Below, one piece after another: positions 125-25,265 of a DNA stretch of 25,409 nucleotides. The notes beneath the pieces were generated by a model, which was not told the DNA's origin, did not search any database, and worked only from the letters and a program-made list of their open reading frames with translations. Both the position numbers and the translations under genes were made by a program. This DNA is from Deltaproteobacteria bacterium. GTDB lineage: Bacteria; Bdellovibrionota_B; Oligoflexia; Oligoflexales; Bog-1112. The first letter of the stretch is position 1. Each line of letters starts with the position of its first letter. The stretch lies in NCBI GenBank assembly GCA_016186945.1, contig JACPKR010000028.1, positions 1 through 25,409 on the forward strand, read 5' to 3'.

Positions 125-1264
125 TTAGAAGAAAGCGACACCTTCCATAACCTTCTTCCAAGTTCTACCGATGGAAACCTGCTCTAGATTCCCCGTTTCA
201 GCATCCTTCAATATTTTGACAGAAAGTACACCATTGGGGTGCGCGATGCGAACCGATGGGCGACTTAAAACCGAGCCTGGATCGCGTAGCATCGCATGTA
301 CGAGACTACCCTTCAGGTGCGCAGCCACGGCGACACAACAAGCCCCGGTGCCGGGAAAAGCCTTGTGCGCGCGTTTGAACCCGACCAGCCTGACGATAAG
401 ATCCATCGCATCTTCGTCTAATAAAGTCCCCTCATGCAAATTGTGGCGTTGAGCCGGAGCGAGAAGCGTTAGGAACGGCACATAAGGGGACAAAGAGAAA
501 GCTTCCTCAGCCTTCGCGACAAGGCCAAGGCGCAGGGCGCAGTGACCGCGAAGACGTTCCAATCTTTCCAAAAGTTCAAGATTCCTCTCTAGTTCATCTG
601 TCGTCTCCCATCCGTTTAGGCCGAGATCGTTGGCTCTGACGAAAGCAACAGGATTGGCAATGTCAACGAAGGAGACAGGAATCGTTCCCAGTTCCGGTAT
701 AGAAAGCGTTTCGATTAACTGTCCTGTTGGCAGGAGCTTGCCGTTCAGGCTTCCCACAGTTTGCGAAAAATCGAGTGAGATTTCCGCACCGCTCCCCGGC
801 ACACCCTCGACTTTGAAATCACCGTAGGTTTTGGGTAACCCATCTTCTACAGGAACCCTGGCAATAATGATCTTTGCTGTGTTCGTGTTGTGAATCTTCA
901 CGGTAGTAAAAGGAGCTTTCGCCTTTACCATGCCTTTTTCAATGGCAAAAGGTCCGACGGCCGCTGAGATGTTACCGCAGTTGCCGTCGTAGCTCACGGT
1001 GTCCTCAGCAATTCCCACTTGGCCAAATGTGTAGTCGAGATCAGCATCCGACCGCGAAGGTGGTCCGATAATCGCAATCTTACTTGTTAGAATGTCGGCC
1101 CCCCCAAGCCCATTGATTTGCCGTTTATCCGGTGTGCCCATCACAGCTTTTATAATGCGGTCCCTTTCCTTTCCAGAAGGGGGAAGATCCTCCGACAGGA
1201 AAAAAACCCCCTTGCTGGTTCCGCCACGAAGGATTGAGCAAGGGATCGACTTCAAGCCTTGCAC
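125..1264 (-). CDS. PrpF-family double-bond isomerase (2-methylaconitate isomerase-like)
   Basis: This 379-residue protein belongs to the PrpF / 4-oxalomesaconate tautomerase family, which moves C=C bonds in aconitate-like tricarboxylates using a diaminopimelate-epimerase-type fold. Family signatures are the N-terminal RGGTSKG (residues 13-19), GLGGADILTSK (52-62) and NCGN around Cys96, with GPFAIE following. Length is normal for the family. The start is a GTG at 1264 behind a purine-rich GGGGAGGGAG. It overlaps the end of the upstream dehydratase by 13 bases, which suggests translational coupling. It is the third gene of a synthase/hydro-lyase/isomerase operon. In known methylcitrate pathways PrpF partners the aconitase-like AcnD. 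Here the partner is a LeuCD-type enzyme, so the substrate is not predictable and I give no symbol. Confidence 0.88.
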   Translation of the reverse strand: MQGLKSIPCSILRGGTSKGVFFLSEDLPPSGKERDRIIKAVMGTPDKRQINGLGGADILTSKIAIIGPPSRSDADLDYTFGQVGIAEDTVSYDGNCGNISAAVGPFAIEKGMVKAKAPFTTVKIHNTNTAKIIIARVPVEDGLPKTYGDFKVEGVPGSGAEISLDFSQTVGSLNGKLLPTGQLIETLSIPELGTIPVSFVDIANPVAFVRANDLGLNGWETTDELERNLELLERLERLRGHCALRLGLVAKAEEAFSLSPYVPFLTLLAPAQRHNLHEGTLLDEDAMDLIVRLVGFKRAHKAFPGTGACCVAVAAHLKGSLVHAMLRDPGSVLSRPSVRIAHPNGVLSVKILKDAETGNLEQVSIGRTWKKVMEGVAFF

Positions 1265-3327
1265 GTCTCCCTCCCCTTCGTTGTCTGCTTGGAATACGCC
1301 ATAAGGCCGCCCATACGGATAAGCTTCTCCTGAAAAGGAGTCATTCCCTTTGCGGGATAGCTTTCGTTCTGGCTATGATTCACAATTCTTTTTTCTTTCA
1401 AATCCACGTCGAGACGATCCCCTTCCCGAATCCTGTAAACATCCTCCCCAATTTCATACACAGGCAGCCCGATGTTCAACGCATTGCGGAAGAAAATGCG
1501 TGCAAAATCACAGGCCACCACAAACTTCACGCCTGCGGTCTTAATGCCAAGCGGAGCACTCTCTCTGGAGGAGCCACAACCGAAATTTCTCCCAGCAACG
1601 ATCACGTCATGGGGAATCTGAAACTTAGCCTGGGTAAAGTGTTCTAAAAAGTCCTCATGTTGGCTATCTGCAAGGATAAACTTCTTGTACTCTTGCGGAT
1701 TCGTAATATTACAAAATCGAGAGGGCATAATCACATCCGTGTTGACATTGTCACCGAAACACCAGGCCCGAGCACCTGCGGAGGATTCCACTTTGTTTGC
1801 AGAGGGGCAAGGCATGGCAATATGGGTTCCTCCTCCCCTTGCCCGCTTTTTCTCAAACGTAGACCGCACCTCTATCAGTTTCTCCAACGCTGTCTCAATT
1901 TCTGCGTCGTTTTCATAGTACGCATCACGTTCCGCAGGAGCTGCCAGGTATCCTGAAAGTGCCGTTGCGGCCGCAACCGCTGGGCTTGCAAGAATGACCT
2001 GTCCGCTGCGATCACCCGTTCTGCCATAGAAATTACGATTGGAAGTGAACACAGCTATTTCGTTCTTGCCGACCACTCCTGATTTGATACCAATGCAAGG
2101 GCCACAGCTTGAAGATTCGATATAACAACCTGCGGACAGGAAGGTTTCCACAAGACCCTCCCTCAAAGCTTGACGGAAAACCTGCTGCGAGGCAGGAATG
2201 ATGACCGCTCTCATGGAAGAAGGAATGCGTTTCCCTCTCAGAATTCCTGCAACAACCCGAAGGTCTTCAATGCGTCCGTTGGTGCATGAACCGATGAACA
2301 CCTGCTGAATAGGAATATGTCCCGACCCATCCACGCGTGGAAGAATGGATTTGACCCTGTCATAGAGCAAGGTCTGTTCATATTTTCTTGGCTGTCTGAG
2401 AACATGCAGGAGTGAGTAAAGCCCCAAGGTGTTTTCAGGAAGGAAGGGCAGTGCCACCATAGGTTCAAGCTGGTCCAGCTTGACGCTTAGTCTTTGGAAA
2501 TAGTCAGCCGAGGAATCGACCTGGAAAGAAGGCATCCTTTCTTTTTCCGGATGAAAGCGGACCTCGTCGGGAAAGTCCTTCAGAACCTTTGAAAAAAGAT
2601 AATCCGAGCTTACGGCATCGGTCGGGAAAAGACCAAATTTCGCCCCTCCTTCGACAGCCATGTTCGCAATCGTAAAACGGGAGGCCATACCGAGATGGGC
2701 AAGCCCGTCGCCGGAGAACTCCAACGCCTTATACGTCGCCCCGTCCACACCCATCATCCCGATGAGGTAAAGCACAATATCTTTGCCGGAAATATGCGGT
2801 CCAGGTTTCCCCGACAGCTCTACAAGAATGGAAGGAGGGACTTGAAGCCAAACTTTCCCCGTCAGCATGATGCTTGCAAAATCGGTCGATCCTACCCCCG
2901 CTGCCAAGGAGCACAGCGCTCCGTAAGTGCAAGAATGAGAATCCGCACCCATCCCGACTTGACCAGGGAACAGAAAGCCTCGCTCCTCAAACAAGCGGTG
3001 CTGAATGCCTCCGTCATAGCCAACCTCAAAAACCCTGATACCGAACGCTCTGGCAAACTCTCGCAGATCTACCATAAGGGAAGCGGAACGAGCCTCGTTC
3101 GCAGGAATAAGATGGTCGAAGGGAAACATTACGTTTTTAGCATTTGCAAGCACATTGTCCACGTAAGGAACTTGCAGGCATCCCTCTTCCTTCAAAATAT
3201 CAATTGCGAATTTCGTGGTCATCTCGCTACCCCAAGCAAGATCGACCTCTACCTCACAGCAATCACCCACGCTAGGGTGGGTACCGGTTTTGTGATGTAT
3301 GATTTGTTGGACAAGTGTTTGTTTCAT
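1252..3327 (-). CDS. Single-chain LeuC-LeuD-type hydro-lyase (aconitase superfamily), substrate unknown
   Basis: This 691-residue protein carries a complete LeuC-like large subunit (about residues 1-490) followed by a LeuD-like swivel domain (about 515-685). The large part has GADSHSCTYGAL (128-139), VWLQVP and the [4Fe-4S] ligands Cys348 (GSCTN), Cys408 and Cys411 (SSCGPC). The small part has NTDVIMPSRF (529-538) and the active-site GCGSSRE (583-589). Most bacteria encode these as two genes, and canonical AcnA/AcnD are nearer 870-890 residues, so this is a compact fused form. The position that in isopropylmalate and homoaconitate isomerases reads YLxx is here FCNI (538-541), pointing to an unusual substrate. 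The gene follows the LeuA-like synthase by 16 bases and overlaps the PrpF-like gene. No LeuB-type dehydrogenase is present, so ordinary leucine synthesis is not supported. Confidence 0.88.
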   Translation of the reverse strand: MKQTLVQQIIHHKTGTHPSVGDCCEVEVDLAWGSEMTTKFAIDILKEEGCLQVPYVDNVLANAKNVMFPFDHLIPANEARSASLMVDLREFARAFGIRVFEVGYDGGIQHRLFEERGFLFPGQVGMGADSHSCTYGALCSLAAGVGSTDFASIMLTGKVWLQVPPSILVELSGKPGPHISGKDIVLYLIGMMGVDGATYKALEFSGDGLAHLGMASRFTIANMAVEGGAKFGLFPTDAVSSDYLFSKVLKDFPDEVRFHPEKERMPSFQVDSSADYFQRLSVKLDQLEPMVALPFLPENTLGLYSLLHVLRQPRKYEQTLLYDRVKSILPRVDGSGHIPIQQVFIGSCTNGRIEDLRVVAGILRGKRIPSSMRAVIIPASQQVFRQALREGLVETFLSAGCYIESSSCGPCIGIKSGVVGKNEIAVFTSNRNFYGRTGDRSGQVILASPAVAAATALSGYLAAPAERDAYYENDAEIETALEKLIEVRSTFEKKRARGGGTHIAMPCPSANKVESSAGARAWCFGDNVNTDVIMPSRFCNITNPQEYKKFILADSQHEDFLEHFTQAKFQIPHDVIVAGRNFGCGSSRESAPLGIKTAGVKFVVACDFARIFFRNALNIGLPVYEIGEDVYRIREGDRLDVDLKEKRIVNHSQNESYPAKGMTPFQEKLIRMGGLMAYSKQTTKGRETCKA

Positions 3328-3343
3328 GGAATGCTCTCTCTCC

Positions 3344-4588
3344 TCAGATTAGATTGAGAATTTCACTCTCGGTAAGGATATGATCTGCTTGTTTTGCAAA
3401 TTCAAACACGCGATTCACTCGGTCCGAGTCTGGCTCATAGCCTCTTTTTTTCAACCAGTAAATGACATTTGATTTTCCACTGGCAGGGCCGATTTCTATA
3501 ATTTGCTCACCGCCAAGCTTTTCCGCGGGGACCGACGAATAGACGTAATCCGCCAACCAATGACTTTGATCCTTTTTCTGGGCTTTGATAATGGCAGCTG
3601 CATGAACGCCCGTTGCTGTTCGGAAAGCATCAGCACCGATAGCTGGGTAATTCCTGGGGATAGGCATCTCATAGGTCCTGGAAACGAAATGACAGTACTC
3701 GTTTAGTAGCTTCAGCTTTTCACCCTGGTACATATCGAGCAAAAAAAGATTTATGAGAATCTGATCCATCGACGCGTTGCCGGATCGTTCTCCGATCCCC
3801 AGACATGTTCCATGTATACGATCCACTCCGCCATCAACAGCTGCAACAAGAGCGTTCGTGACACCAAGCCCCCTGTCGTTGTGCCCATGCCAGTCGATTT
3901 TGACATCGACTCCGGAATCCCAGATAGTCTTTCGCGTGAATTCGATCAAATTGATGACACCGTCAGGAGTGGCGTAGCCGACCGTATCGCACAAACATAG
4001 TCGCCTTGCCCCCGCATTGATCGCGACTCTGAAAAGCTCCTTTAAAAATCGAGGATGCGCCCTCGTCGTGTCCTCCGTAACGAACATCATCTCCAGACCG
4101 TTTTCCGTACCGAAGCGAATGCATGCCTCCGTTTTTTCCAACATTTGCTCGAAATTCCAGTCTTCTGTAAAACGGCGTATCATGCTGGAACCGATGAACG
4201 CATGACCTTCGAGGGGAAGCCCGACTTTCTGAGAGAGTTCGACAATGGGAACAAAGTCTTCTTTAAGTGTCCGCCCTCCACTAACTAGTTTCAGTGACAT
4301 GCGACATCTTGCAGCTTCTTCCGCTAGACGAAAAACGTCGCTTTTCACCCTCTCCCCAGCCATGGGAAGCCCAATGTTGGCCACAGTGATACCAAGATCG
4401 TTCATATAGTGAAGAATTTTTATCTTGTCCTCTATGCAAGGGGTTTTTACTGAGGGGGACTGCAAGCCATCTCGCAAGGTTTCATCATTAAGGTCAACAT
4501 GAGCGACTTTACGGTCAAATAATTTATGAGTGCTATTTCCCGCAAAATCAAACTTGTTCCACGGGTAGATGAACTCATTAATACTCAC
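3344..4588 (-). CDS. LeuA/homocitrate synthase-type acyl-CoA condensing enzyme
   Basis: This is a 414-residue DRE-TIM metallolyase-superfamily synthase, expected to condense acetyl-CoA with a 2-oxoacid. It has DETLRDG (residues 35-41), LCDTVGYATP (about 199-208), the metal-binding HGH (234-236) and GIGERSGN ending at Asn270. It lacks the roughly 100-residue C-terminal leucine-feedback domain of standard LeuA and ends soon after a SGKSNVIYWL segment. I choose GTG at 4588 because AAGGAG sits 6 bases upstream. The open frame continues to 4744, but those 52 extra codons are translation of a repeat element. It is the first gene of the operon with the hydro-lyase and PrpF-like isomerase. Candidate activities are isopropylmalate, citramalate, Re-citrate or another alkylmalate synthase, and sequence alone does not decide. 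Confidence 0.85.
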   Translation of the reverse strand: MSINEFIYPWNKFDFAGNSTHKLFDRKVAHVDLNDETLRDGLQSPSVKTPCIEDKIKILHYMNDLGITVANIGLPMAGERVKSDVFRLAEEAARCRMSLKLVSGGRTLKEDFVPIVELSQKVGLPLEGHAFIGSSMIRRFTEDWNFEQMLEKTEACIRFGTENGLEMMFVTEDTTRAHPRFLKELFRVAINAGARRLCLCDTVGYATPDGVINLIEFTRKTIWDSGVDVKIDWHGHNDRGLGVTNALVAAVDGGVDRIHGTCLGIGERSGNASMDQILINLFLLDMYQGEKLKLLNEYCHFVSRTYEMPIPRNYPAIGADAFRTATGVHAAAIIKAQKKDQSHWLADYVYSSVPAEKLGGEQIIEIGPASGKSNVIYWLKKRGYEPDSDRVNRVFEFAKQADHILTESEILNLI

Positions 4589-4594
4589 GGCGGT

Positions 4595-4600
4595 CTCCTT
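4595..4600 (-). promoter_or_regulatory. Ribosome binding site that fixes the start of the LeuA-like gene
   Basis: On the minus strand AAGGAG is followed by a 6-base spacer and GTG at 4588. No comparable site precedes the upstream in-frame ATG at 4744, which lies inside the repeat element. Confidence 0.7.
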
Positions 4601-4614
4601 TACATTAGATTGAT

Positions 4615-4754
4615 GTAATGCGTAAGCCACTTGGGGCAAATAGGGAGAGGGGGGTTTGGGGGGGCGAGGGAACCGTCGCTCCCCCAAGGGATTTCTTGGA
4701 GGAACCAGCTGCGCAGTTTCCTCCAAACCACCTCCTTGCCCCAAGTGGCTTACT
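4615..4754. mobile_element. Full-length MITE-like palindromic element, copy A
   Basis: This is about 140 bp with perfect 18-bp terminal inverted repeats: GTAAGCCACTTGGGGCAA at 4622-4639 and its complement at 4737-4754. The left side carries an extra GTAATGC that the right side lacks. Inside are a G-rich block with four G runs (4643-4670) and a conserved 54-bp core (complement of 4685-4738) shared with the copies near 16.2, 19.0 and 21.9 kb. It encodes no transposase. It fills most of the gap between the divergent LeuA-like and ComA-like genes, so transcription of one or both must start in or beside it. In the minus-strand frame it adds the peptide GGGLEETAQLVPP to the LeuA-like reading frame, which is an artefact. 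Confidence 0.85.
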
Positions 4755-4832
4755 CCTTTGAAAGACTATGAATCTTCATCAGATAATGATGCATTTTAAG
4801 TTCAATTTTCAAATTGCGTGAGAGAGGCTTTT

Positions 4833-5756
4833 ATGAATTTTACACAGATGCTCACTAATTTTCAAGATCAACTCACAAAAGATGCAGGCAGAACAGCGAA
4901 ACCAAGACGTGAAGGTATCACGATGGTTCTTGTTTTTGATGTTGTGAATCGTGGACCTGCTTACATACGACCTTTCAGTAAATTGATAGATCGCGTAAAG
5001 CTATTGGACACGATGTGGCACGATGACCTCTCGACAGTTGCCAAGTATGTTCAGGAATTTCGAGAACTCAATATCGACGTTGCTTTTGGTGGCACTCAAT
5101 TTGAAGTTGCTAAAGCGCAAGGTAAGATGAGTGAATATCTGACGCTTTTAACCCAACTTGGAGTCAATGAGATTGAAGTTGAGAATCATGCAAGTGGAGC
5201 CACACTTGAGGAAACAAAAGACGAAATAAAAATGTTGAAAGATAGAAATTTCACCGTCGTAGGAGAACTCGGGAAAAAATGGGCCTGGAAAGATCCTACA
5301 AGAAAATCGCGAGACCTCATTTTCGTCGACAAAGTACTCGAACAAGCATTAAGTATGGTAGAGGCAGGAGCTGATTATATCTACTGGGAAGGCATGGTCG
5401 TCAGGAATTTGATCGGCACCCAACTTGAGAACTTAGAAGGACAGAAGCAATTTCTCGACGTAGTCAGGCAAGTGCATTCTGATCGTTTTATTTTTGAAAT
5501 TTGGGACGCACGCGGACAACCCAATACGCCCATTATTTCGTGGCTGGTCAAGGAGCTTGGTCCTAACGTTAATCTTGCAAATATTTTCCCGGAAGATGTG
5601 AAATTTGTAGAGTGGATACGCAACGGTATCATCTACGAGATGGATCACCCGTACATGCGCTGGTCGCAAGACAGGTCAGTAGCCAAACATTGGTGGCAAA
5701 TGGAGTCTCCCGATTACTCGATCGACATGCAGCGGAATTTTTCCCTCAAAAAGTAG
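4833..5756 (+). CDS. ComA-like protein (phosphosulfolactate synthase / HSA32 family)
   Basis: This 307-residue TIM-barrel protein is similar along its length to ComA, which adds sulfite to phosphoenolpyruvate in coenzyme M and sulfolactate synthesis. Matching features are IDRVK (52-56), FGGTQFE (85-91), the acidic NEIEVEN (112-118), GELGKK (144-149), AGADYIYWEG (178-187) and NVNLANI (245-251). The segments after IDRVK and after the second EG differ from archaeal ComA, and the last 35 or so residues (MDHPYMRW onwards) extend past the family's usual end near 250 residues. Plant HSA32 homologs show that not every family member has a known sulfite-adding activity, so the reaction is uncertain. 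ATG at 4833 is preferred over GTG at 4818 because GAGAGAGG precedes it. No ComB, ComC or ComDE is in the window. It looks somewhat AT-richer than its neighbours. Confidence 0.75.
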   Translation: MNFTQMLTNFQDQLTKDAGRTAKPRREGITMVLVFDVVNRGPAYIRPFSKLIDRVKLLDTMWHDDLSTVAKYVQEFRELNIDVAFGGTQFEVAKAQGKMSEYLTLLTQLGVNEIEVENHASGATLEETKDEIKMLKDRNFTVVGELGKKWAWKDPTRKSRDLIFVDKVLEQALSMVEAGADYIYWEGMVVRNLIGTQLENLEGQKQFLDVVRQVHSDRFIFEIWDARGQPNTPIISWLVKELGPNVNLANIFPEDVKFVEWIRNGIIYEMDHPYMRWSQDRSVAKHWWQMESPDYSIDMQRNFSLKK

Positions 5757-16181: not shown

Positions 16182-16329
16182 GGTAATGCGTAAGCCGCTT
16201 GGGCCAAAAAGGGAGAGGGGGGTTTGGGGGGGCGAGGGAACCGTCGCTCCCCCATGATTTTTTTTGGAGGCACCAGCTGCGCAGTTTCCTCCAAACCACC
16301 TCCTTGCCCCAAGTGGCTTACGCATTACC
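16182..16329. mobile_element. Full-length MITE-like element, copy B, with target-site duplication
   Basis: This is a 148-bp non-coding element with 26-bp terminal inverted repeats (16182-16207 and 16304-16329) matching at 24 of 26 positions. The outer tip is GGTAATGCGTAAGCC. It is flanked by a perfect 6-bp direct repeat ATGCAA (16176-16181 and 16330-16335), the expected footprint of transposition. The interior is nearly identical to copy A, including the G-rich block (16211-16238) and the 54-bp core. It inserted three bases downstream of the stop codon of the prepilin gene and 24 bases upstream of the metH start. No transposase is encoded. Confidence 0.9.
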
Positions 16330-16338
16330 ATGCAAGCG

Positions 16339-17727
16339 CTACAAAGTACAAGTCGCCGCAAGATCGGCGGGCGTCTCGTCAAATTCATAACAACATTTGA
16401 TCTCTTCCTTGCACGTCACATCTGTTGTGCAGCTTCCCCCATATTTGTTAATAGCACAAGGTGAAGAAAGATCGGCCCTGCACGAGGAGTCCGGAATGGA
16501 TGGATCACTCACATCATCTCTGGCATATCCTGGCAAATCTCTGTTAGGCGGAGGCACGATCTGTTCGATAATCGGGCGGATCGATTCCATCCAACCTCCT
16601 CGCTTGCATCCCAGAGAGCCGCCTGCGTTCCAGTCGATCGTTTTCGTTTCGCAACAGACTTGTGTGCAAATGACACCACCGTCCGCATCGACTCCGCGAA
16701 AGCGTTCATCCGCAGCACACCGTTTCTCCTCCGCAAAACATGCTCCTTTGTCATCGCCAAGCCCACTAGGCACAAACGTGTACGGGAACAGGCATTCACA
16801 GACAGGTTCCCCGTCCTGAATCCCCGTTACCGAAAAATTAGGGGCGCAAGACGACTCCGACGCGGTTATATCCCTCGGCACTATGCTTACAGGAATCGTG
16901 ATCGCCCCGAGGGTGGACATGACCGAATCCTTCTCCACCCAAAATACCTTATCCGGAGGGTAGTTAGAAACGTGAATACGCTGAGACCCCGATCGTGGAA
17001 TTGCGGGTTCATAGACGACCTGATAACGAAGGTGAAGGGTCTGTGCTGTTGAACACAGAGTTGGGGTAAATTCCGGTCTTCCGCTTCGCGTCTCACCAGG
17101 GGTTCCCAAGAAGGTGTCTTGAGGCCCGCATGTTGCCCAGAAATAGGCTCGCACCTTCACATCACACCCGCGTTCCGGCGCCGCACGCGAACATAGTCTG
17201 CCGTCCAGGATATTGTAGAGAGCAGGCTGACTCGGGCTGCCTGCGATCGTGTGCTTTTCAAGAAGTTGCGGCGCCACCGAACTTGAATCCCTGAACGGGA
17301 GGATAAGTTCGAATCCGACCTGTGCCCTGGGGTCTGTCGCACTACAGGCAAGCGCGTTAGGATCCCCAGCAAGGGACAAACAGTTGCGGAGTGCCACGTT
17401 CCCGTCAGCGTTGGAAAACACGGAGCTGGCGCGGATCACGTTTGGATCGGAAAGGGCACGCTCGATCCTCTGCGCAATCTCCTTCGTCCGCAAATTGACC
17501 TGCATGTCACGCACGGTCCTCTGCTGCTGACTTACAAAAGTCGCTATACCCAACGACAGTGTCACGGTGATGCCGATCGCGATCATCAGTTCGACAAGAG
17601 TCACGCCGGAGGATGGGCGGAGTAAGCAAAATCGTCGGCAAGGATGATTTTTGCCAATTCGGAGTGCCTTCGCGGGAATCGACGCCCGCTGGGGAACATT
17701 TTCTTGATCTCTTACTGAGGTTGACAA
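16339..17727 (-). CDS. Cysteine-rich prepilin-like protein (PilW-type minor pilin), second of a pair
   Basis: This 462-residue protein has a prepilin peptidase site SSG/VTLVE (cleavage after Gly41, Glu at +5) followed by a hydrophobic helix (about 47-65). Such proteins are exported and assembled into a type IV pilus or pseudopilus tip. The leader is long and arginine/lysine rich. The only well-placed in-frame start is TTG at 17727, which overlaps the upstream gene by 16 bases. The large C-terminal region is cysteine-rich, with ending motifs such as CECLFPY, ERFRGVDADGG and VCCETK. Its order of motifs mirrors that of the upstream gene, so the two are tandem paralogs. Function beyond the pilin-like export signal is unknown. 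Confidence 0.82.
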   Translation of the reverse strand: MSTSVRDQENVPQRASIPAKALRIGKNHPCRRFCLLRPSSGVTLVELMIAIGITVTLSLGIATFVSQQQRTVRDMQVNLRTKEIAQRIERALSDPNVIRASSVFSNADGNVALRNCLSLAGDPNALACSATDPRAQVGFELILPFRDSSSVAPQLLEKHTIAGSPSQPALYNILDGRLCSRAAPERGCDVKVRAYFWATCGPQDTFLGTPGETRSGRPEFTPTLCSTAQTLHLRYQVVYEPAIPRSGSQRIHVSNYPPDKVFWVEKDSVMSTLGAITIPVSIVPRDITASESSCAPNFSVTGIQDGEPVCECLFPYTFVPSGLGDDKGACFAEEKRCAADERFRGVDADGGVICTQVCCETKTIDWNAGGSLGCKRGGWMESIRPIIEQIVPPPNRDLPGYARDDVSDPSIPDSSCRADLSSPCAINKYGGSCTTDVTCKEEIKCCYEFDETPADLAATCTL

Positions 17728-18908
17728 CAGACGAGTCTCCTCATGTTACACACAAGGCCCATGGCATATTCTCGACGATCAACTCTGCACGCAGCAGGGC
17801 AATCATCGTTTTTTAACGCACTCGTGACCGTGCCTTCCGGACAACTGCTTCTGCAACCGACGACACCGCTTACCCTCTTTTTATACCCATCTATCCTGTT
17901 TTCCGCAGCTTCGTTGCTGGAACAACCCCTATAGATGCTGTTTATCTTGGGCATGGTGCAGTAAAAGGCACAGCCCTGTCTGTGATCTTCCTGCACCCAA
18001 TACCCTGCGGGACAGCTAGCCGTTTCGGCGATGGTTTTCTCAAGTTCGATGCAGTTATAAGCTTCCGAGGGATCCACGCAGTTAGCCGTACCATCAGAAC
18101 GCAGGCCGCGGAAAACAAGGTTTTCCGGACAGGTCAGTTCGGCTGCCATCGTTCGACGGCAGATGGGCCCTCGTCTGTTTTCCGTAGGGGACTCCGTTCT
18201 GGAAACGTAGGGTGGGGTGCAAACGCAAATCGCTCGCCCTCGGGAATCGTAGCCGCTGATGATGGCGCCCGGGTTGCATTCGCTGCTGGTAAAGGGACCG
18301 AGGATGTCTTCGACACGATGGGTGAAAAAGTTGACGGCCTTCGGAAGGGGAGCGAACGGTTTCATCCCCGCCAGGGTGCCAGGACGTTGAGAAACCTCGT
18401 AGCCCACGTGGATTTCCTCAGCACCTTCCAAACATGTTTTCCCCTCTCCCCCCGGGCATGTGGCAAAGAAAAACGTGTCGACCTGAAAGACGCATTCAAG
18501 ATCCCCCCCCTCCTTACATTTCAGACCCTGCGTGTTGAAAAACACCGGCTCAGCAGGAAACCCACTCATGCGGTCAAAACTGGCAGTTCCCGTCGGATAG
18601 GCTAGGGCAAAATAATTGGGGCTTGCCACATCGTGAGCGATGAGCCGAGTGGTGCACCCGTCAAGAGAGCCTAAGAGACATTTGATGAGATCGACATTTC
18701 CTTCATCCAGGATGCTAAGATAGAGGGAACTAGGGGTTCTGATTTTATTCTCAACATCTTGTGCTATGAACTGAAAAACGGTGCGGATACGCGCCCTTCT
18801 TTGTGATTGGAAAGTCGAGCTGAAAAACTGGGAAATACCGACAACTAGAATGCCAATTATCCCAGCAGCTACAATAGCTTCGATAAGAGTTGCTCCACGT
18901 TGGCGCAT
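17712..18908 (-). CDS. Cysteine-rich prepilin-like protein, first of a pair
   Basis: This 398-residue protein has a very short leader MRQRG, then the cleavage and methylation motif ATLIEAI (Glu at +5) and a hydrophobic helix up to about residue 28. The rest is soluble and rich in cysteines, suggesting a disulfide-stabilised exported domain. Shared landmarks with the downstream paralog are FFATC, a C-P..G..CxC..PY block (ICVCTPPY), LVFRGLRSDGT and a closing CC. The extra C-terminal part from about residue 290 has further cysteine repeats. No pilus assembly genes (PilB, PilC, PilD, PilQ) are in the window. Upstream lies a divergent region shared with rapA. Confidence 0.82.
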   Translation of the reverse strand: MRQRGATLIEAIVAAGIIGILVVGISQFFSSTFQSQRRARIRTVFQFIAQDVENKIRTPSSLYLSILDEGNVDLIKCLLGSLDGCTTRLIAHDVASPNYFALAYPTGTASFDRMSGFPAEPVFFNTQGLKCKEGGDLECVFQVDTFFFATCPGGEGKTCLEGAEEIHVGYEVSQRPGTLAGMKPFAPLPKAVNFFTHRVEDILGPFTSSECNPGAIISGYDSRGRAICVCTPPYVSRTESPTENRRGPICRRTMAAELTCPENLVFRGLRSDGTANCVDPSEAYNCIELEKTIAETASCPAGYWVQEDHRQGCAFYCTMPKINSIYRGCSSNEAAENRIDGYKKRVSGVVGCRSSCPEGTVTSALKNDDCPAACRVDRREYAMGLVCNMRRLVCCQPQ

Positions 18909-18976: not shown

Positions 18977-19056
18977 AGCCCGCTTGTAGCAAGGAGGTGG
19001 TTTGGAGGAAACTGCGCAGCTGGTTCCTCCAAGAAATTCCTTGCCAAAAGCGGGCT
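18977..19056. mobile_element. Short form of the MITE-like element, copy C
   Basis: The 54-bp core (18990-19043) is shared with the other copies and is flanked by a 9-bp inverted repeat, AGCCCGCTT (18977-18985) and AAGCGGGCT (19048-19056). The G-rich block of the long copies is absent. The arms differ from those of copy A, but the changes occur on both sides so pairing is kept. It ends about 6 bases before the rapA ribosome binding site, and it extends the rapA reading frame artificially by 25 codons. Confidence 0.8.
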
Positions 19057-21839: not shown

Positions 21840-21858
21840 AGGTTTGGACCCTTCGGAG

Positions 21859-21912
21859 CAAGGAGGTGGTTTGGAGGAAACTGCGCAGCTGGTTCCTCCA
21901 AGAAATTCCTTG
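21859..21912. mobile_element. Core-only copy of the MITE-like element, copy D
   Basis: These 54 bp are essentially identical to the core of copy C, starting CAAGGAGGTGGTTTGGAGG and ending AAGAAATTCCTTG. No longer terminal repeats are visible. Internally GGAGGAA and TTCCTCC pair around CTGCGCAG, giving a hairpin. It fills the gap between the convergent rapA and glycyl radical enzyme genes and could act as a bidirectional stop or RNA-stability structure. Confidence 0.8.
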
Positions 21913-21925
21913 TCACGACGAGCAA

Positions 21926-24334
21926 CTACCACGTCTCATAATGAGTGCGATGTATAATGTCGTCTTGAACTTCCTTGCAAAGTTCGACGAAATAGGCGCT
22001 ATAGCCCGCCACGCGAACAATCAAAGACCGAGCCTGGTCAGGGTCTTTTTGCGCGGCAAGAAGTTGTTCCTTCGTCACGCAATTGAACTGGATTTGACTT
22101 CCTCCCAGTTTTTTGTGGGACTTCACCAAGGAGACAAATTGCCGCTTTCCTGTTTCATTCTCAAGAAGTTTAGGATCAATTTTTACGTTGAGCAGTGTGC
22201 CAAGCGGCATTGCGATCGGGTTGACGCGAGCGACAGACTTGATTACAGACGTGGGCCCTTCCTTGTCGGTTCCTTGCGAGGGGCTAATGCCGTCAGACAA
22301 CGGCATGTATGCTTTTCTCCCGCTTGGCAGAGCGCTTATGGCAGCGCCTTGCGGAACATTGGTGGAAACAGACAAGGTTCCCAGTTCGAGGGTGGAGAAG
22401 AGACCTCTGTGTTGAGTGATTTCGTAGGAAGCAAAGTCCACAATTTCTTTCGCGATGTGATCGACTTCTTCCACGTCATTTCCGTATTTCAGAACGTTTC
22501 GACACATCTTGTGAACATCTGGGTGCCCTTCGAAATTTGCCTGAAGAACGTTGACCAGCGTGCGGAATGTCAGTTTCTTTTCCTCAAAAACAAGTTTTTT
22601 AACTGCATACATGGCGTTCGCATAGTCAGCCACTCCTACTACGATCACGCCGGGGCCAGAGTTGTAACGGGCACCTCCGTCCATGTAACCTCTGCCTGAT
22701 TCCACGCAACCTTCGACGAGGGCTGACCCAGCAGGTTTGGGAACGTAGCGTTGGTGGGCTTTCTGGCAGACAATCGTGCAGGTTGCCGATACCTTGAACA
22801 GGTGTCTGAGCTGCTCCTTGACGGCATGTTCGAAAGTATCAAAGCTTTTGAAAGTTTCCACCTCACCGGTTCGGAGGCCTAAAACCTGATTACTCTTTAA
22901 ATGACGTCCGTTGTTGAGTGCGAGTTCGATCGCTACGGGAAAGTTCGTGTAAATTGCCGATGCCCACCGCACCAACTTCCCGTGTATGTGCGGTTCAACA
23001 CATGCCATCACACAATAGTCCCGGGCATCTTCAAGTGAGATGCCTCGAGATTGGAGCATCTGGAAGTGAATCTCGTCGAAGTGAATGCCGGGAAATCCCA
23101 TCCCGGCTTTGACGAGGTCAGCGATGGCGAAGAGGAAATCATCCTTGGTTTTGTCGCTCACTCGAACGGAAATCGAAGGTTGATAGAGCTTCAGATTCGC
23201 TGAGCATTCCATGACCAAGAAAGACAATGGGTTGGTGGCATCCTCACCGTTCCTGTCCAGGCCGCCTACGATTACATTTTGGAAGGGCATATACCCTGCA
23301 AAATAGTAGGCGCCAAATTCGCTGAGAGGCCAGACGTTTTCGCTTAACTTAATGAACAGGCAATAGAGCAGCTCCTTTGCCTCCTCCCAAGTGAGCGTCT
23401 TGTCATCGAGGTCTTTTTTCAAAAATGGGTAAAGGTACTGGTCGATCCTTCCCGGCGATGTCCCTGCATTATTCTCTTCAAGATAGAGTGACATCTGCCC
23501 GAACCACAAAGCCTGGAGCGCTTCGTGAAAGGTCTCCGGAGGCAGACCAGGGACCTTGGTGCAAATCTCCGCAATCTGAACTAAGTCTTGTTTTCTCTTG
23601 AAATCCTTAGAGGCAGCAGCCTGCTCACGCGCTAAGGTGGACATGCGCCTTCCCAAGAGGATCATAGCGTCGCACACGATCGTGACTGCCGTTAAAAAGA
23701 AGTGCTTTTCAATATCCTCACTCTTGTGCAGTTCCAGTTGACGCAGTTTCTCTTCCGCCTCTTGTTTAATGCCCAAATATCCCTTTTTTAGAAGAATATT
23801 GGCATAGCCAGGAGAAAGGTCTCCTCCTCCATTTGTAGTTTTCACTTCGCAGTCAATAATTCCCGACCCGAGGGAAATGTTTAAGAGTCCCAGCTCATCG
23901 AGTTGCCTATAAACAACCTCGTCAACGGAACGCCCTTTCCAGAAAGGAAAGATCTCCTCTCTAAGAGTTTTTTTGTCTTCCTCAGAGATGGTATAGGGAT
24001 CGACAGAGCGTTTGTGAACCGTGTCTAGCTCTCGCTCCACCCATCTCCAACAGATGTCTGGAGAAAACATGCCGGCCCTCGGCTTTCCCCCGGCGTGGCC
24101 AACAATAAGCTCGCCTTCACTGATATAGATGGGAAGAGTTTCGCAGGTGCGATAGATCCCCCGCGCCTTTGTCAAAATCGGGTGCATACCAGGATGCTCG
24201 CGAGCAATATCGGTAAGCGCTTTCGCGCTGTGAATAGAGAGCGAAGGCTTTGCTGAAAAGTAGGCGTCTCGCATCTTGCGAATGCGGGGCGGAAGTTTGT
24301 CGATACCATGCCTTGCCTTAGCTGTATGTTCCAT
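21926..24334 (-). CDS. CutC-like glycyl radical enzyme, substrate uncertain
   Basis: This 802-residue anaerobic radical enzyme of the eliminase branch has active-site Cys445 and Glu447 in ACVEP and the glycyl radical Gly777 in RVAGYS. Compared with choline trimethylamine-lyase CutC (residue numbers from memory), the Cys-to-Gly spacing is exactly 332. Asp172, Phe351 and Tyr462 fall where CutC has Asp216, Phe395 and Tyr506. The position of CutC Thr502 is Ala, and that of Tyr208 appears to be Val. Phe at the 395 position argues against isethionate lyase, where I recall a Trp. It may act on choline or another trimethylammonium or small alcohol substrate. ATG at 24334 is chosen because AAGGA precedes it. 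It overlaps the activase gene by 17 bases. No microcompartment shell genes are present. Confidence 0.85.
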   Translation of the reverse strand: MEHTAKARHGIDKLPPRIRKMRDAYFSAKPSLSIHSAKALTDIAREHPGMHPILTKARGIYRTCETLPIYISEGELIVGHAGGKPRAGMFSPDICWRWVERELDTVHKRSVDPYTISEEDKKTLREEIFPFWKGRSVDEVVYRQLDELGLLNISLGSGIIDCEVKTTNGGGDLSPGYANILLKKGYLGIKQEAEEKLRQLELHKSEDIEKHFFLTAVTIVCDAMILLGRRMSTLAREQAAASKDFKRKQDLVQIAEICTKVPGLPPETFHEALQALWFGQMSLYLEENNAGTSPGRIDQYLYPFLKKDLDDKTLTWEEAKELLYCLFIKLSENVWPLSEFGAYYFAGYMPFQNVIVGGLDRNGEDATNPLSFLVMECSANLKLYQPSISVRVSDKTKDDFLFAIADLVKAGMGFPGIHFDEIHFQMLQSRGISLEDARDYCVMACVEPHIHGKLVRWASAIYTNFPVAIELALNNGRHLKSNQVLGLRTGEVETFKSFDTFEHAVKEQLRHLFKVSATCTIVCQKAHQRYVPKPAGSALVEGCVESGRGYMDGGARYNSGPGVIVVGVADYANAMYAVKKLVFEEKKLTFRTLVNVLQANFEGHPDVHKMCRNVLKYGNDVEEVDHIAKEIVDFASYEITQHRGLFSTLELGTLSVSTNVPQGAAISALPSGRKAYMPLSDGISPSQGTDKEGPTSVIKSVARVNPIAMPLGTLLNVKIDPKLLENETGKRQFVSLVKSHKKLGGSQIQFNCVTKEQLLAAQKDPDQARSLIVRVAGYSAYFVELCKEVQDDIIHRTHYETW

Positions 24335-25265
24335 CTGCTGATCCTTCAAAAAAAGCACGTATTCCATATGTTTCCAAAATCGACCGTGCCGTGTTGAGAA
24401 AGGGGTTCAAATCGCAACGGGGAGCTTGAAAGGGGGCTTCAATACCAAGCCGTTTCACTTTTCCCAGACCTAATTTATGGTAACGGAGCAACTCTACTCC
24501 CTGAAATTGTTTGCCAGGAAGGTTTTCCAGAAAACGACCCGCCATGTGGACATTTTCCTCATTGTCATTTATCCCCGGAACAACAGGAATTCTTATTGTC
24601 AAAGCTATGTCTTTTCTAAGAAGTGCTTTGATATTGCGAAGGATGGGTTCATTGGGCACACCAGTCACGGCACGGTGGACTTGAGAGTCCATAACCTTCA
24701 TGTCTACAAACATGCTGTCGACGTGATCCGTTAACCGATCCAGCACCTTCCACGGCGCATAGGCAGAACTTTCCATAGCCGTGTTGATCTTTGCTTCATG
24801 ACAAGCCTTGAGCAGGTTCAATGCAAACTCAGCTTGGGATATGGGATCCCCTCCCCCCAGCGTCATCCCCCCATCACTTTCTTCATAGAAGGTGAGGTCC
24901 TGCTTAACGATGTCCAAAACTTCAGCAACGCTCATGAGACGACCGCTTGGGACAAGAGCGTCATGGGGGCACTTTTCAATACATTCCTGCCACGTCAAAC
25001 AAGGGTCATCGCTTTCACCACGTCCGCTATCCAAGACCTCTCTTCTTGTTCTTGCAGCCTTAAGCGGGCAAGCGCTCTCGCTGAGATCGCAGGTTTCACA
25101 CTTTTCTCGGTCGAAGAATAGAGACCTTGATCGTGATTGCCCCTCAGGATTCGAGCACCATAAGCAGGACAGGGGACAGCCTTTAAGAAAGACAAGAGTT
25201 CGAATGCCCGGGCCATCATGAAGCGAAAACTTCTGTATATTGAAAATGAAGCCCGTCATCTTCAT
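24318..25265 (-). CDS. Glycyl radical enzyme activase (radical SAM, CutD-like)
   Basis: This 315-residue radical SAM protein installs the glycyl radical on the downstream enzyme and needs anaerobic conditions. The SAM cluster motif is Cys30-x3-Cys34-x2-Cys37 (CPLSCLWC), preceded by SLHDGPGIRT (14-23), the usual activase signature. A ferredoxin-like insert follows with Cys56, Cys59, Cys66, Cys89, Cys95 and Cys99. That is six cysteines, fewer than the eight expected for two extra [4Fe-4S] clusters. GGGDP (about 140) is the GGEP-type SAM motif. It is the first gene of the operon and overlaps the enzyme gene. ATG at 25265 follows GAAAGG. Confidence 0.92.
   Translation of the reverse strand: MKMTGFIFNIQKFSLHDGPGIRTLVFLKGCPLSCLWCSNPEGQSRSRSLFFDREKCETCDLSESACPLKAARTRREVLDSGRGESDDPCLTWQECIEKCPHDALVPSGRLMSVAEVLDIVKQDLTFYEESDGGMTLGGGDPISQAEFALNLLKACHEAKINTAMESSAYAPWKVLDRLTDHVDSMFVDMKVMDSQVHRAVTGVPNEPILRNIKALLRKDIALTIRIPVVPGINDNEENVHMAGRFLENLPGKQFQGVELLRYHKLGLGKVKRLGIEAPFQAPRCDLNPFLNTARSILETYGIRAFFEGSADGTYS

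Follow-up and report, generated by a model that had tools for sequence, protein, structure and literature searches.

Background

The question raised by the locus described here is which acid, if any, would be made by three tightly coupled genes encoding a LeuA-like synthase, a fused LeuC-LeuD-type hydro-lyase and a PrpF-like isomerase, and whether the ComA-like gene running divergently from them takes part. The locus lies at one end of a contig of 25,409 nucleotides (the window, meaning the whole stretch that was analysed), which belongs to an assembly of 2.66 Mb in 76 contigs that is 91% complete. An initial annotation had read the three enzymes as carrying out condensation, dehydration and double-bond isomerisation, which their families support, and had gone on to suggest a sulfonated substrate. 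The features concerned are the following.

125-1264, minus strand: PrpF-like isomerase gene (open reading frame; PF04303, E 2e-116; nearest Mii)
1252-3327, minus strand: fused LeuC-LeuD-type hydro-lyase gene (open reading frame; PF00330, 2e-98, and PF00694, 1e-14)
3344-4588 as likely extent, reading frame open to 4744, minus strand: LeuA-like synthase gene (DRE-TIM; PF00682, 1e-37)
4615-4758, no strand given: dispersed 144-nt repeat upstream of the synthase (second copy at 16183-16326, 92%)
4818-5756, plus strand: divergent ComA-like TIM-barrel gene (PF02679, E 2e-34)

Locus organization and gene starts

All four open reading frames were recovered with the coordinates and Pfam matches first given to them, and their close spacing is exact, with an overlap of 13 bases between the PrpF-like and LeuCD-like genes (1252-1264) and a gap of 16 bases between the LeuCD-like and synthase genes (3328-3343). 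The synthase itself has to be shortened: an open reading frame does span 3344-4744, but a start at 4744 is unlikely, because its first ~47 residues are translated from the dispersed repeat (144 nt, 4615-4758), a ribosome-binding-like AAAGGAG stands just before a GTG at 4588, and homologues begin near the MSINEF-YPWN segment found there. The true start is therefore likely to be this GTG, as judged from the sequence, giving a protein of ~414 residues. Between the ComA-like gene and the synthase start there are ~230-245 bases, with the mobile-looking repeat in between, so that a shared divergent promoter should not be assumed.

The repeat belongs to a family of 59-144 nt elements in both orientations, present in the window at 4615-4758, 16183-16326, 18988-19046 and 21857-21915, with at least 28 further short translated matches in the genome; members of the family lengthen reading frames artificially. 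Three 30-bp tandem repeats, exact or near-exact, occupy positions 1-114 at the contig end, just 3' of the PrpF-like gene.

The isomerase resembles Mii

Among solved structures, the best match of the PrpF-like protein is 3-methylitaconate Delta-isomerase (Mii, 3G7K) at 350 bits, ahead of PrpF (232) and oxalomesaconate isomerase (205); the protein is 47% identical to Mii over 366 aligned residues and keeps the PrpF-family cysteine (GNCGN, C96). By sequence, then, its closest solved relative is Mii, an enzyme that turns methylitaconate into dimethylmaleate and has activity on itaconate too (PMC4720413). The aconitate isomerases TbrA and TarA are PrpF-superfamily proteins as well (PMC11495376), as is fungal Adi1, and since some members of the superfamily isomerise aconitate, family membership is not enough to settle the substrate. 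A methylcitrate-type pairing gave scores under the cut-off for both partners (275 of 440 bits for the PrpF model, 102 of 1420 for AcnD), and the sole citrate synthase found in the genome passes the cut-offs for citrate synthase but not those for methylcitrate synthase, in agreement with the initial statement that this is not the standard methylcitrate cycle.

The pairing of a LeuCD-type hydro-lyase with a Mii-like isomerase of the PrpF family has a counterpart in the nicotinate fermentation of Eubacterium barkeri, where DmdAB and Mii work with a dimethylmalate lyase; in the window, by contrast, the C-C enzyme is a LeuA-like synthase and a single gene encodes both hydro-lyase subunits. LeuCD and PrpF-like genes also lie side by side on a plasmid of Yersinia ruckeri (with LeuC broken), and Streptantibioticus cattleyicolor carries LeuC-LeuD-PrpD-PrpF-lyase, the lyase being of the isocitrate-lyase/PEP-mutase family. 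By analogy, these two neighbourhoods correspond to the DmdAB-Mii-lyase arrangement, and the window has the synthase in the place of the lyase.

The hydro-lyase substrate loop

The fused protein comprises a large subunit (residues ~1-465) and a small subunit (~515-690), scores above the cut-off of NF001614, and has as its closest solved matches homoaconitase and the archaeal isopropylmalate (IPM)/citramalate isomerase subunits. Its small-subunit substrate loop reads SRFCNIT, where IPM isomerase has ARYLVYT and homoaconitase GPYLRTT. The Arg of the YLRT loop, which serves homoaconitase for a charged side chain, is replaced by Asn (FCNIT), and this speaks against a homoaconitase.

The loop also contains a Cys that the solved LeuD proteins lack at this position. 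LeuD partners beside seven relatives of the synthase (L036, L042, L048, L050, L076, L097 and L100) read [YF]C, and a Cys is found at the same position in L033 and L047; L098, with Val, is an exception, and LeuD proteins encoded far from the synthase (L056, L067, L074) read FL. The distribution gives the impression of co-adaptation to substrates of one kind, though the comparison was made only after the pattern had been spotted.

A widespread synthase clade

Relatives of the synthase were collected with a profile built from the window protein and a Streptomyces plasmid homologue and run on bacterial and archaeal genomes; a scan of viral contigs gave no match. The synthase is ~50% identical to clade members in many phyla, and the best 80 of a longer list of relatives, at 43-54% identity, are titled as Myxococcota, Acidobacteria, Gemmatimonadetes, Planctomycetota, Chloroflexi and others. 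In a maximum-likelihood tree, 18 members of the family group together (100/100) at the end of a long stem that separates them from LeuA, CimA, NifV and one FrbC-like reference, although several long branches meet there and the placement of these outgroups is unsure. No NCBIfam model scores above its cut-off; the LeuA models reach 190 of 517 bits at best. On sequence grounds the synthase is thus a member of a distinct, widespread LeuA-like clade without an NCBIfam model of its own, and the early expectation that it would fall outside LeuA, CimA and NifV was borne out.

Aligned to solved homocitrate synthases, the window protein has Gly and Met in place of the His and Arg that, we presume, hold the distal carboxylate of 2-oxoglutarate in those enzymes, which speaks against a homocitrate synthase or NifV. 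In profile scores the citramalate synthase structure ranks below homocitrate and isopropylmalate synthases, and is the lowest LeuA-type structure except for Mycobacterium tuberculosis LeuA.

The neighbourhoods of the relatives are varied. LeuC and LeuD adjoin the synthase in L036, L042, L050 and on the plasmid of Streptomyces sp. KN37 (L033), and in L036, L042 and KN37 a LeuB-family dehydrogenase completes the row; LeuC/LeuD genes beside the clade were also noted in L076, L097 and L100. A thiolase gene is nearby in 13 of 81 loci, an isopropylmalate-type dehydrogenase gene in 4, and a PrpF-like gene at only one other synthase locus among 80, L077. On the KN37 plasmid, the synthase, LeuCD (LeuD first) and dehydrogenase genes stand in a PKS/NRPS region that also holds two crotonyl-CoA carboxylase/reductase genes, and this set possibly supplies an unusual building block. 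L077 and L048 place their synthases inside anaerobic benzoyl-CoA degradation clusters, with Oah in both, a BcrC-like gene in L048, and Had, a 2-oxoacid oxidoreductase subunit and PrpF- and LeuC-like genes in L077.

Leucine synthesis and chain elongation

The locus shares with the leucine pathway (LeuA-LeuCD-LeuB) its order of synthase and isomerase and its family logic. It differs in having a synthase of ~414 aa outside the LeuA clade (LeuA models are ~500 aa), an extra PrpF-like gene, a Cys in the LeuD loop and no LeuB found. The absence of a LeuB-type dehydrogenase, first noted for the locus, holds throughout the 91% complete genome, in which the only Iso_dh protein is an NADP isocitrate dehydrogenase. 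In contrast, the claim that there is no citrate synthase is true of the locus and not of the genome, which has one Si-type enzyme on another contig, along with one separate mitochondrial-type aconitase and the single NADP isocitrate dehydrogenase. With these enzymes encoded separately and no LeuB found, the locus fits neither simple leucine biosynthesis nor the TCA cycle. Within the genome, HMGL-like matches were limited to the synthase and a 1160-aa frame, presumably pyruvate carboxylase.

If a dehydrogenase were encoded in the unsequenced part of the genome and the PrpF-like gene were incidental, the synthase and LeuCD could still elongate a 2-oxoacid by LeuA-LeuCD-LeuB logic, as the four-gene rows of L036, L042 and KN37 might suggest, and a 91% complete assembly leaves room for such a gene. 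We consider this unlikely, given that no second Iso_dh protein was found and that the 13-base overlap of the PrpF-like and LeuCD genes argues for a joint function of their products.

Citrate and aconitate

The same three genes could alternatively encode a Re-type citrate synthase, an aconitase-like LeuCD and an aconitate isomerase, leading from acetyl-CoA and oxaloacetate to trans-aconitate. TbrA, TarA (PMC11495376) and fungal Adi1 give this reading a precedent within the PrpF superfamily, and a citrate branch would be sensible for the relatives in benzoyl-CoA clusters, particularly L077 with its apparent 2-oxoacid:ferredoxin oxidoreductase genes. Against it, the PrpF-like protein is nearest Mii, LeuCD lacks Arg at the homoaconitase position, and an Si-type citrate synthase is encoded in this genome as well as in 49 of the 50 genomes containing a synthase relative, which makes the clade dispensable for citrate formation. 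Overall, a trans-aconitate product appears improbable, somewhat more so than chain elongation, and a Re-citrate synthase serving as sole citrate synthase was rejected, the Si-type enzymes leaving such a role unneeded.

The ComA-like protein and the sulfonate proposal

It had been proposed that sulfopyruvate, made via the ComA-like protein, is condensed to a sulfonated analogue of malate or citrate. The protein does belong to the PF02679 fold family, it reaches E 7e-18 against 1QWG with phmmer, and, like coenzyme M-type ComA (1QWG; YitD, 1U83), it is a TIM-barrel protein with GGT, GKK (including the lysine) and VNLAN segments. Together with its divergent position next to the synthase, the kept GKK lysine speaks for the proposal. 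The likeness ends at the five common motifs DKG, FG(W/A)GT, S(D/N)G, RESG and EAP, which are replaced by FDV, LLDTMWHD, VENHA, GMVVR and EIWDA. All five are kept by proteins of Xanthobacter and Nocardioides (coenzyme-M-type) and Methylocystis, and four by the solved fragments 1QWG and 1U83, with DKG outside the fragments. The score against the arch_ComA model, 95 of 280 bits, is below the cut-off, and ComB (PF04029) has no match in the 91% complete genome, whereas 7 of 14 control genomes do match. The protein is probably not a phosphosulfolactate synthase. With the LeuCD and synthase pockets also lacking the residues by which a charged side chain is accommodated in homoaconitase and homocitrate synthase, and no ComA-like gene within up to 10 kb on each side of 80 synthase relatives, condensation of sulfopyruvate becomes highly improbable. 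A ComA domain in a 970-aa protein on a Legionella lytica plasmid (L115, 7673-10585), beside a ComB gene and an aminotransferase gene, possibly marks a different, genuine sulfolactate-type cluster.

The precedent invoked from FR-900098 biosynthesis did not hold up either. FrbC, too, is a LeuA-superfamily enzyme encoded near an aconitase-family gene, but the single FrbC-like reference, picked by its PEP-mutase neighbourhood and sitting on a long branch, groups with NifV and outside the window's clade. A plasmid of Streptomyces scopuliridis (L178, 1868-7020) carries a PEP-mutase-family gene, a NifV-like synthase, an aconitase and a dehydrogenase fragment, resembling an FR-900098-type cluster.

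Whether the ComA-like gene belongs with its neighbours has a divided answer. It is not conserved beside the synthase clade, and the four-gene set was seen only at this locus, being absent from the 80 synthase loci and the phylum; ComA-like genes do, however, adjoin LeuCD, PrpF or PrpD elsewhere. Phylogenetically, the window protein clusters with three proteins of Chloroflexota (95/94), its branch being 2.6 changes per column long, and two of their genes adjoin PrpD. A C-terminal piece from Natrinema zhouii has in common with it the unusual segment WEGMVVRNLIG, and has CoA transferase, HMG-CoA lyase and tricarboxylate transporter genes as neighbours. Less closely related ComA-like genes are found overlapping PrpF in Bradyrhizobium, within a TcuA-PrpD-PrpF region of Paracoccus versutus, and immediately after LeuC-LeuD in a Chloroflexota genome, while other sampled loci have no LeuCD, PrpF or PrpD neighbours. 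As these organisms are unrelated, the arrangement may be more than coincidence, although the association is no more than suggestive. The literature search returned no paper naming both phosphosulfolactate synthase and PrpF.

Within the phylum, searches beyond the genome itself recovered neither a ComA-like gene (56 genomes) nor, at E<=1e-90, a LeuCD (58 genomes, the number that the collection holds), which gives the cluster the look of something acquired, or else retained only here. The ComA-like protein likewise had no match at 1e-15 in a sample of 395 genomes from the phylum to which another genome, G085 (titled Gammaproteobacteria), belongs.

A candidate route to itaconate-type acids

The reading we prefer, tentatively and at somewhat less than an even chance, is that the three genes form a biosynthetic operon for an itaconate-type acid, resembling the DmdAB-Mii-lyase module run backwards. 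A neutral side chain is suggested as preferred because the synthase and hydro-lyase lack carboxylate-binding residues and the isomerase is nearest Mii, and with a LeuA-like synthase as the C-C enzyme the direction should be biosynthetic. In the first step, the synthase would condense acetyl-CoA or some other acyl-CoA with a 2-oxoacid whose side chain is uncharged, such as pyruvate, to form a 2-alkylmalate; dehydration by the fused hydro-lyase would lead to an alkylmaleate, and an allylic shift of the double bond by the Mii-type isomerase would then yield an itaconate-type acid. Pyruvate and acetyl-CoA would yield itaconate, and pyruvate and propionyl-CoA 3-methylitaconate, the irreversible synthase standing in for the lyase of the E. 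barkeri module. The ComA-like protein, rather than being a sulfite/PEP enzyme, may have the product or one of the intermediates as its substrate. Gene anatomy, families, nearest relatives and the missing LeuB are observations, on which we base our inference of the substrates, the direction of the route, its product and any part played by the ComA-like protein.

The tbrA/tbrB trans-aconitate operon and the Adi1/Tad1 itaconate route likewise use a PrpF-superfamily isomerase to make an unsaturated acid; they differ from the window, which has a dedicated synthase and hydro-lyase in place of TCA-cycle cis-aconitate, and where neither an exporter nor a decarboxylase was recognised beside the operon. 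Several observations count against an itaconate-type product, namely the isopropylmalate-type dehydrogenase beside several synthase relatives, which points to 2-oxoacid elongation there, the low citramalate synthase score, the lack of a recognised exporter beside the operon, the restriction of PrpF-like genes to L077 among the other synthase loci and the Val of L098. The two relatives in benzoyl-CoA clusters, which have no evident link to its chemistry, are a weak point for it as well.

What is new is the combination of known enzyme kinds headed by an uncharacterised synthase clade. The broader proposition, that bacteria make itaconate or 3-methylitaconate de novo without needing aconitate decarboxylase, by a route that starts with the widespread LeuA-like clade with its LeuD-Cys partners and in which a repurposed ComA-family enzyme may act on the product, is rather doubtful at present. 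If true, it would provide bacteria with a direct route to itaconate-type acids whose chemistry is unlike that of the cis- and trans-aconitate decarboxylase routes. Itaconate-type acids inhibit isocitrate lyase and are industrial monomers.

Whatever the product, an uncharacterised LeuA-like synthase clade across many phyla is marked out. Moreover, proteins annotated through PF02679 as 'phosphosulfolactate synthase' include a group without that enzyme's motifs, encoded among carboxylic-acid hydro-lyase and isomerase genes, for which that annotation misleads.

Other features of the window

Two long adjoining proteins are encoded at 16339-18908, without a family match apart from a weak prepilin methylation motif in one of them. 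Positions 21926-25265 encode a glycyl radical enzyme and its activating enzyme; the best solved match is CutC (choline TMA-lyase), and the enzyme scores 925 bits against the CutC model, under the equivalog cut-off of 1050.
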